Positions 7,220 through 35,244 of a stretch of DNA of 64,000 nt are shown here, in pieces; position 1 is the first letter of the stretch, and every line of letters starts with the position of its first letter. This stretch comes from Alphaproteobacteria bacterium (GTDB lineage Bacteria; Pseudomonadota; Alphaproteobacteria; Sphingomonadales; Sphingomonadaceae). Where the stretch lies: contig JAUHWC010000005.1 of NCBI GenBank assembly GCA_030424845.1, positions 51,001 through 115,000 of the forward strand. The letters are read 5' to 3'. Position numbers and translations under genes: made by a program. Under the pieces are notes generated by a model. The model saw nothing but the letters and a program-made list of their open reading frames with translations, ran no database searches and was not told where the DNA came from.

Positions 7220-7780
7220 TTACAGGATGCCCCGTGCAGACAGGCCCAGGATGATGGCAATCAGGGCCGGCACGCCGGCAAGACCATAGGACAGCAGTTT
7301 CTGCGGAACGCGGGCTTCCCATTCACTCCCCGCCATGACGGCGGCGGTCAAGGCCAGCGCGCTGCCGATCGCACCGCCGGCGGCAGCCAGCACCGGCTCG
7401 CCTGTCTGCAAGGTCAGCGCAACGACCAGGAAGCGCGCAGCATCGGTCAGCTGGGCGGCAAAGATCACGATCGCGATCGCTCCGGCAGAGCGGGTGGGTT
7501 CCCTCGGCGCAGGGCCTGCACGCAGGAAGGCCAGCTCCAGCGCGGACAGCAGCAGCGCGATGGCCACGAACATCTGCTTGGTTTGCGGTGCGAGCATGGG
7601 GGCCAGCAGGGTTCCCGCCCACGCCGCGATGGCGGATGTGGCAATGGCACTGGCCCAGATGATCGCCAGCAATATGCCGCCCTTGCCCAGCGCCCCGGAA
7701 AGCCGCGCTGTGCGCACCTGCTCGCGCCCGGCAAGGGTCACGACAAGGCAGGCCATCAGGGTTAGGAAGAAGGCGGGCAT
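7220..7780 (-). CDS. Small polytopic membrane protein, possibly a diverged TMEM165/GDT1-like protein
   Basis: Protein of 186 residues with about six hydrophobic segments and almost no soluble part. It has two similar halves: LACLVVTLAGREQVRTARL at the N terminus and IVIFAAQLTDAARFLVVAL in the middle. Their position and spacing recall the paired E-x-G-D-K-T motifs of GDT1/TMEM165 cation transporters (AE[IL]GDKTQ), but most of the acidic and Lys residues are replaced. If related, transport function may be altered or lost. This is a weak match by eye, so it should be treated as a conserved hypothetical membrane protein. It is the last chromosomal gene before the island. Confidence 0.5.
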   Translation of the reverse strand: MPAFFLTLMACLVVTLAGREQVRTARLSGALGKGGILLAIIWASAIATSAIAAWAGTLLAPMLAPQTKQMFVAIALLLSALELAFLRAGPAPREPTRSAGAIAIVIFAAQLTDAARFLVVALTLQTGEPVLAAAGGAIGSALALTAAVMAGSEWEARVPQKLLSYGLAGVPALIAIILGLSARGIL

Positions 7781-7855: not shown

Positions 7856-7873
7856 CTGGAGCGGTGAAGGGAA
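7856..7873. repeat. attL/R-like copy of the tRNA-Gly 3' end (left)
   Basis: CTGGAGCGGTGAAGGGAA matches CTGGAGCGGGTGAAGGGAA at 35170-35188 except for one missing G. The right copy is the last 14 nt of the tRNA plus its encoded CCA. This fits a duplicated integration core with a later 1-nt deletion. Confidence 0.7.
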
Positions 7874-7931: not shown

Positions 7932-7953
7932 TGGCCCCCAATCTGGCCCCCAG
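7932..7953. repeat. Integrase arm-type repeats, left end
   Basis: Two direct copies, TGGCCCCCAAT (7932-7942) and TGGCCCCCAG (7944-7953), lie about 65 nt inside the left core. Four more copies lie inside the right core, so these are likely binding sites for the N-terminal domain of the island integrase. Confidence 0.55.
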
Positions 7954-33738: not shown

Positions 33739-34968
33739 TCAGCGCTTCGCCGTTTTGATCGGCACCACCTGAGCCCCCGCTCGCAGCCTATCGAGGTAAT
33801 CGCTCCACCATTGCGCCATCTTCACGCGCTCCTTCCAATGGGCACCGCGATGATAGGCGGCGCGGACCTTGTCGCTGTCGCCGTGGGCCAGGGCGCGTTC
33901 TATGGCGTCGGGATTCCACTTGCCGCTTTCGTTCAGCAAGGTGGAGGCCATCGCGCGGAAGCCGTGGGCGGTCATTTCATCGGTGGTATAGCCGAGGCGG
34001 CGCAGGCCAGCGTTGATTGTGTTGTCACTCATCGGACGCCTGCGAGTGCGGACTGACGGGAATACAAAGCCAGTGGGACCGGTCAGTTGCTGCGCCTCGG
34101 CAAGGATCGCAATGGCCTGGCGCGAGAGCGGAACGAGGTGATCCTTGCGCATCTTCGTTTTGCTTGCCGGGATCGTCCATAACGCTCCATCAAAGTCGAA
34201 TTCGCTCCATTCTGCATGGCGAAGCTCGCCCGGCCTGACAAACACATGTGGAGCGAGTTGCATTGCCAGCTTGGTGATCGGTTGGCCTTCGTAGCCATCG
34301 ATTGCTCGAAGCAACGCCCCAGCCCCGTCAGGATCAAGGACCGCGCCGTAATGCGTCACGGTAGGGTTCATCAGTGCACCCCTCAAATCGCGTGTGGGAT
34401 CGGATTTGAGGCGCGCTGTGGCGACCGCATAGCGAAAGACCGAACCTGCCAGTTGCAGAGTCCGTTTAGCGCTCTCCAGCCTGCCCTTGCTCTCAATGCG
34501 GCGAACGGCGGTCAGGATGTCGGCAGGCTCGATGTCTGCAATCGGCAGATTGCCAATCGAGCTGTTAAGTACCGAGAGCAGATATTCGCAGCGCTTCGCC
34601 GTGGCAGGTGCCCATGCCCGTGAACCATCATTCCGGCGCTTCTCGCAGAACTCGGCAGCCAAGGCAGCAAAGGTATTCTCGGCATCCAGCCTCGCACGCG
34701 CCTTCTCACGCTGTTTTTCGCGCGACGGGTCCTTGCCCTTTGCCATCTGCTCTCGCGCCGCATCGCGCCTTCTCCGAGCCTCAGCCAACCCAACTTCCGG
34801 GTAAGTTCCGAGACCCAGTTTCTTTTCGCGGCCATCGACGCGGTACTTCATTCGCCACAGTTTTCCGCCGCTTGGCTGCACCAGGAGGAAGAGGCCTGAC
34901 GAGTCGCCCATTTTGTAGGGTTTCGGACCGGCCTTTGCTTTACGAATTGAAACGTCTGTTAGCGCCAT
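33739..34968 (-). CDS. P4-type tyrosine site-specific integrase
   Basis: Tyrosine recombinase of 409 residues. The N-terminal DUF4102 arm-binding domain starts ALTDVSIRKAKAGPKPYKMGDSSGLFLLV. A core-binding SAM-like domain follows, and the catalytic domain shows RPGELRHAEW (Arg I), HGFRAMASTLLNE (His-x-x-Arg) and the nucleophile Tyr in DKVRAAYHRG. It appears intact. It lies about 200 nt inside the tRNA-Gly 3' end and reads into the island, the standard arrangement for elements that integrate at tRNA genes. It is the gene that mobilises the island. Confidence 0.95.
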   Translation of the reverse strand: MALTDVSIRKAKAGPKPYKMGDSSGLFLLVQPSGGKLWRMKYRVDGREKKLGLGTYPEVGLAEARRRRDAAREQMAKGKDPSREKQREKARARLDAENTFAALAAEFCEKRRNDGSRAWAPATAKRCEYLLSVLNSSIGNLPIADIEPADILTAVRRIESKGRLESAKRTLQLAGSVFRYAVATARLKSDPTRDLRGALMNPTVTHYGAVLDPDGAGALLRAIDGYEGQPITKLAMQLAPHVFVRPGELRHAEWSEFDFDGALWTIPASKTKMRKDHLVPLSRQAIAILAEAQQLTGPTGFVFPSVRTRRRPMSDNTINAGLRRLGYTTDEMTAHGFRAMASTLLNESGKWNPDAIERALAHGDSDKVRAAYHRGAHWKERVKMAQWWSDYLDRLRAGAQVVPIKTAKR

Positions 34969-34992
34969 GATTTCAGAGCCTTACCCGGTATG

Positions 34993-35059
34993 TGGCCCCC
35001 AGGCTGGGGGCCACTCGAATTGGCGGAAACCCATTAGGCCCCCAAAGTGGCCCCCAATT
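34993..35059. repeat. Integrase arm-type repeats, right end
   Basis: Four copies of the TGGCCCCCA element: a perfect inverted pair TGGCCCCCAG/CTGGGGGCCA (34993-35013), AGGCCCCCAAA (35036-35046) and TGGCCCCCAATT (35048-35059). They lie between the integrase start and the tRNA and match the two copies at the left end. Confidence 0.6.
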
Positions 35060-35169: not shown

Positions 35170-35188
35170 CTGGAGCGGGTGAAGGGAA
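35170..35188. repeat. Island attachment core within tRNA-Gly (right)
   Basis: CTGGAGCGGGTGAAGGGAA covers the encoded CCA and the 3' acceptor and T-stem bases of the tRNA. It matches 7856-7873 except for one extra G. Confidence 0.7.
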
Positions 35189-35244
35189 TCGAACCCTCGT
35201 CGTCAGCTTGGGAAGCTGCTGCTCTACCATTGAGCTACACCCGC
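35171..35244 (-). tRNA. tRNA-Gly (anticodon CCC)
   Basis: On the minus strand it folds as a standard 70-nt body plus TCCA. The acceptor is GCGGGTG/CACCCGC, the D-arm GCTC-AATGGTA-GAGC, the anticodon arm has loop TTCCCAA, the variable loop CGAC and the T-arm GAGGG-TTCGATT-CCCTT. The anticodon is CCC. The top pair of the anticodon stem is G-A. CCA is encoded. It is nearly superimposable on E. coli glyU. Its 3' end is the integration site of the island and remains intact. Confidence 0.95.

Follow-up and report, generated by a model that had tools for sequence, protein, structure and literature searches.

In this work, we found that the 9-mer TGGCCCCCA, clustered just inside both ends of a tRNA-associated genomic island, very probably (roughly 95%) represents the arm-type sites of the island's own integrase. 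This reading comes from sequence comparisons within the window (i.e., the whole 64,000-nucleotide stretch of DNA analyzed) and across related elements. Nearly as much confidence is placed in the complete account, in which these sites would form one attP and their specificity would come from a few residues of a beta-sheet in the integrase. The earlier note had proposed that these repeats look like P and P' arms, and this proposal is well supported by an empty tRNA site, by the layout in related elements, and by covariation between the words and integrase residues.

The island is inserted at the 3' end of a tRNA-Gly(CCC) gene (35171-35244, minus strand) with duplication of the core, and the core-to-core distance is 27.3 kb. 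The right core (35170-35188, plus strand; CTGGAGCGGGTGAAGGGAA) consists of the 3' end of the intact tRNA-Gly and one additional base, and the left core (7856-7873, plus strand; CTGGAGCGG-TGAAGGGAA) is a displaced tRNA-Gly 3' end that falls one base short of the right copy. In congeners, an uninterrupted tRNA-Gly(CCC) adjoins the left-flank gene of the window without any break. In the clearest of these (G417), the left flank is matched over 850 bp at 77% and is followed by an unbroken CTGGAGCGGGTGAAGGGAATCGAACCC. Therefore, the tRNA is whole at the right end of the island, its displaced 3' end lies at the left, and the ends assigned by the earlier note are borne out. The empty sites of the congeners G417, G422, G421, G405, and G420 have no word cluster beside the tRNA, indicating that the word is element-borne. 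The congener G404 has a partial copy of the tRNA-Gly 3' end (contig C1, ~2671.7-2690.4 kb; ~42 bp, 91% identity) ~18.5 kb from the intact gene, which suggests another island at the same tRNA.

The cargo (8299-33302) is for sugar uptake and breakdown. It includes genes for a GH13-like amylase, GH36, GH68, and GH32 proteins, a TonB receptor, an MFS transporter, a ROK kinase, two LacI-type regulators, and a KDPG aldolase. No transfer genes were recognized among the scanned proteins of this region. Next to the integrase gene, the ORFs between 33302 and 33739 include no convincing candidate for an AlpA/TorI-like recombination directionality factor (RDF). A GGG that is complete in the tRNA copy and in the empty site of the congener is one G short in the left core, and this loss may reflect decay after insertion or may limit excision. 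Given the lost base and the lack of a recognized RDF ORF beside int, the present-day mobility of the island is uncertain.

The integrase (409 aa; 33739-34968, minus strand) has an N-terminal arm-binding domain (PF13356; 90.6 bits, cut-off 27), a central domain (PF22022), and a catalytic domain (PF00589; 71 bits). R245, K272, H335, R338, H362, and Y372 are invariant over 32 relatives, and we take these to be the catalytic R-K-H-R-H-Y set of a tyrosine integrase. Judged by these domains and residues, the protein is an integrase of the IntSXT/P4 type. Its arm-binding domain has Q31, K41, and K50, and its arm-domain relatives in the PDB are 3ju0 and 3jtz (E-values of 1e-19 to 4e-22). None of the other four PF13356 integrases of the same genome uses TGGCCCCCA. 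One of these (L032; G000:C7, ~416 kb) has D31 and D50 and its own upstream array with four copies of TGGGGGTA. This array differs from TGGCCCCCA, so integrases with different arm words are present in one cell.

The window contains six exact copies of TGGCCCCCA, a number never reached in window shuffles (mean 1.12, maximum 4). On the left, two plus-strand copies spaced 12 bp apart (7932-7940 and 7944-7952), which we regard as P' arm-type sites, follow the core end at 7873 and confirm the earlier statement of two copies ~65 nt inside the left core. On the right, three exact copies lie upstream of int, at 34993-35001 (plus strand; offset -33 from the int start), 35005-35013 (minus strand; -45), and 35048-35056 (plus strand; -88). 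The remaining putative P arm-type site (35036-35044, plus strand; -76), 12 bp from the last of these, reads AGGCCCCCA with one mismatch to TGGCCCCCA, and several relatives have the exact word at this position. These right-hand sites (34993-35056) are 113-177 bp from the right core start at 35170. The earlier note had counted four copies 110-180 nt inside this core; the distance holds, but only three of the copies are exact. Its further statement that the word occurs only near the cores is correct for the island and not for the whole window, because one exact copy (7597-7605, minus strand) lies in a flanking ORF (7220-7780) that is not part of the island.

In the 2.83-Mb genome, TGGCCCCCA occurs 29 times (16 and 13 by strand; ~1 per 98 kb), compared with eight occurrences (three and five by strand) of a reversed control pattern. 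Pairs of TGGCCCCCA no more than 100 bp apart number four against 0.03 expected (P ~3e-8), and all four lie at the ends of the island. Hence, it is precisely these ends that the word marks, though it is not unique to them. An equal density of the 9-mer over the chromosome, the observation that the earlier note had named as speaking against its reading, is thus ruled out. The genome count rejects a common chromosomal word, and the clustering together with the reversed-pattern control rejects a chance origin of the repeats.

The same layout was found in a comparison set of 80 loci with related integrases. The word is present within 400 bp upstream of int in 43 of the 80, where it is 61-fold denser than in the remaining locus sequence, and close relatives have it at offsets and orientations (-88 minus, -76 minus, -45 plus, and -33 minus) identical to those of the window. 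The comparison with related integrases that the earlier note had suggested is thus in its favor. In a scan blind to integrases, the double word GGCCCCCANNNTGGCCCCCA had 44 copies in 28 of the 401 genomes of the order (reversed control: 0), and these were often paired on one strand at a distance of 10-27 kb. Relatives without TGGCCCCCA have another word in the same array (TGGGGGTAT, TGGGGGCCT, or TGGGGGCAT), with the forms T-GGGGG-TAT, T-GGGGG-CCT, or T-GGGGG-TAC/TC. A far-end pair with 12-bp spacing was observed in 16 related loci, where it is followed by a tRNA 3'-end remnant. In all 16, the class of this pair matches that of the near array (A-A in four, B-B in 10, D-D in one, and E-B in one, with E having the same TAT word). 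One close relative (L079/L183; 87%) has the -33 site alone; the stretch with the other three sites is apparently gone, int has an early stop, and the locus appears to be a decaying element.

The targets of these elements are nearly always tRNA-Gly(CCC) or tRNA-Gly(TCC), with a few at Cys, Leu, Val, and Thr. That the words were copied along with the tRNA target was rejected, because the word is independent of the tRNA used: CCA words occur at tRNA-Gly(CCC), Gly(TCC), and Cys, and CCT words occur at Gly, Leu, Val, and Thr. In phages with an intact attP, both site sets lie within ~280 bp upstream of int, and the far pair again has 12-bp spacing. Examples are Stenotrophomonas phage S1 (TGGGGGTAT at -262/-250, with more near int), Achromobacter phage AchV4 (TGTTGGCCT at -263/-251/-236/-41/-10), and Rhodobacter phage RcPeripeteia (TATGGTCT at -226/-214/-53/-18). 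This is the arrangement of P arm, core, and P' arm expected before integration. Many relatives (L065-L144; e.g., L112, L115, and L116) also have repeats like GCGTTCACCCGCGTTCGCATTCA between the core and the arm array, ~100-160 bp upstream of int. These resemble the TorI GTTCG/GTCCG sites of KplE1 and are possible RDF sites.

The arm word follows the arm-binding domain of the integrase and not the tRNA. Of ~400 integrase columns, column 31 has the strongest association with motif class, followed by column 50. A rule was fixed on the 80 loci and written down before unseen loci were read. For the first base after the G-run, K50 predicts C and L50 or A50 predicts T; for the third base, K50 predicts A with Q31 and T with E31, S31, or T31, and L50 with T31 predicts T. 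In the unseen loci, with those having fewer than two G5 sites left out of scoring, the rule was correct for the first base in 64 of 64 and for the third base in 51 of 53. Extra pairings seen there were R50 with CAT, R31/Q50 with TCA, and N31, R31, or K31 with CCT. A phage with an intact attP also conforms to the rule.

When 165 loci were pooled into 116 clusters (90% identity of the arm domain), K50 was found with CC in 69 of 74 clusters, L50 with TA in 24 of 24, and R50 with CA in eight of nine. Within the K50/CC clusters, all 40 with Q31 had A, and 28 of 29 with another residue at position 31 had T. In a leave-one-cluster-out analysis, in which each 75%-identity cluster was predicted from the others only, residue 50 alone gave the first two bases correctly in 80% (next column: 62%; majority class: about half) and residue 31 gave the third base in 92% (next column: 80%). 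Residue 50 thus appears to track the two bases that directly follow the G-run (CC for K, TA for L, and CA for R), and residue 31 appears to track the third (Q with A; T, E, S, N, R, and K mostly with T). Within the window integrase's own clade (99% support), E31 in place of Q31 goes with CCT in place of CCA. Close pairs that differ in Q31/E31 differ in CCA/CCT in 39 of 39 cases, and these pairs are not independent of each other. On the catalytic-domain tree, the well-supported independent pairs number one for residue 50 and two for residue 31; each of these fits the rule, with no such pair contradicting it. The phylogenetic evidence is therefore independent to a good degree across clusters and to a modest degree on the tree.

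Exceptions to these pairings include L187 (Q31/K50 with CCT/CAC), L239 (a GGGGCTA word, left unscored), three loci without G5 arrays (L249, L252, and L261), and L357/L358 and L374/L375 (R50 without CA); several distant-group R50 integrases also deviate. In a post hoc comparison of a few loci from across the class and from phages, residue 41 varies with the central bases of the G-run (GG for K, AC for D, AT for N, and TT for A), so that this residue perhaps reads the middle of the site. Three loci with D41 (L269, L277, and L320) have TGACGGTA words in place of TGGGGGTA.

A predicted model of the arm domain has strands at 18-21, 26-30, 36-44, and 47-56 and a turn at 45-46. In this model, residues 41 and 50 form an opposed pair on the two strands of the hairpin, and residue 31 ends the preceding strand, which would place all three on one face of the sheet. 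The chemistry of these residues fits the pairings, with adenine matched to Gln, thymine to Leu, and a GG pair of the opposite strand to Lys. Residues 31 and 50 are probably the main specificity determinants. With somewhat less assurance, we favor a nearly modular code of sheet residues in P4/IntSXT-type integrases, in which residue 41 would correspond to the middle of the G-run, residue 50 to the next two bases, and residue 31 to the third. Arm-type sites are an already known kind of element. A text search of the literature for TGGCCCCCA with "integrase" returned nothing relevant, and a search on how arm-type sites are recognized yielded no residue-to-base rule within a literature from which most subscription papers were out of reach. 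Work by Szwagierczak in 2009 reportedly described the arm-domain structures of the HPI and HAI7 integrases without DNA and gave no such rule. The recognition rule appears to be undescribed in the searchable literature.

Among known systems, the attL of the KplE1 (CPS-53) prophage of E. coli K-12 resembles the window in having an integrase of the same family (IntS), a tRNA 3' end, and arm-type sites that recur immediately 5' of int. KplE1 differs in its word (GGGTAAAA, three copies upstream of int, vs. TGGGGGCCA in the window), its target (tRNA-Arg), and its known excisionase TorI. The experimentally studied arm sites of IntS share TAAA (PMC2951348). The arm domain of IntS can be aligned with that of the window integrase, and IntS has Ile at position 50; together with GGGTAAAA, this fits a pairing of a hydrophobic residue with TA. 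The structures 3JTZ and 3JU0 are those of the arm domains of the HPI and HAI7 island integrases (PMC8138268), which likewise have a homologous arm-binding domain and belong to tRNA-associated islands. The IntSXT subgroup shares the DUF4102/PF13356 arm, core-binding, and catalytic domains and occurs in islands, ICEs, and phages; the survey of this subgroup classifies the proteins, and its consulted passages give no arm-site words (PMC8138268). Lambda integrase is similarly heterobivalent, with its N-terminal domain on repeated arm sites that flank the core (PMC2951348), but its word is unrelated; the window is distinguished by its 12-bp-spaced far pair and predicted four-stranded sheet.

Other explanations of the repeats were also considered. 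It is very improbable that they are bound by an AlpA/TorI-type RDF or a host bending protein instead of the integrase. RDF sites do occur in att regions, the GTTCG-like TorI sites of KplE1 adjoin the IntS arm sites, and many relatives have GTTC-like repeats between the core and the arm array, but these repeats are an element separate from the arm words. The latter are found on both sides of the core and covary with integrase residues 31 and 50 in unseen data. We consider it just as improbable that the sites are solely an operator or an RNA hairpin controlling int. An 11-bp inverted repeat (34992-35014), perfect and with 1 nt between its halves, does lie in the int leader, but several relatives keep the direct pair without the inverted pair, and the far direct pair and its same-class match would be left unexplained. 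No terminator-like hairpin was found, and with the far pair unaccounted for, the hairpin/terminator reading was rejected. A second, regulatory role of arm-type sites is plausible because those of KplE1 overlap the int promoter and IntS represses its own gene (PMC2951348); by analogy, the near array of the window could serve in self-repression.

More weight is given to the idea that residues 31 and 50 are mere lineage markers, with arm words tracking ancestry and not direct recognition, although we regard this as unlikely. In its favor, the catalytic-domain tree offers few independent changes with strict support, and further arm-domain columns differ between the classes. Against it, columns 50 and 31 are by far the best predictors across the 75%-identity clusters, and the Q31/E31 switches between CCA and CCT occur inside the well-supported clade that holds the window integrase.

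As arm-type sites of the island's integrase, the copies of TGGCCCCCA would come together in the excised circle as one attP, with a P arm (the four sites by int), the core (the tRNA-Gly 3' end), and a P' arm (the two sites spaced 12 bp). The N-terminal domain (residues 1 to ~95; a predicted four-stranded sheet) would bind T-GGGGG-CCA and the catalytic domain would bind the core; the sites flanking it would thereby help assemble the recombining complex. The specificity would be set by a few sheet residues (50, 31, and perhaps 41). The site positions, the empty tRNA site, the conserved layout, the class match at both ends, and the residue-base association that predicts unseen loci are direct observations, and binding by the integrase, direct contacts between these residues and the bases, and the mobility of the island are inferences.

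The place where the recombining complex assembles is set by the arm sites, which are usually found element by element through footprinting. In these islands and phages, the word, the layout, and two protein positions predict one another. This offers a simple route to both ends of such islands and a means of recognizing islands open to recombination by one another's integrases, and it lets single substitutions probe how a beta-sheet domain reads DNA. If the code is true, arm sites and hence both island ends would be predictable from the protein sequence, and specificity would be exchangeable by single substitutions.
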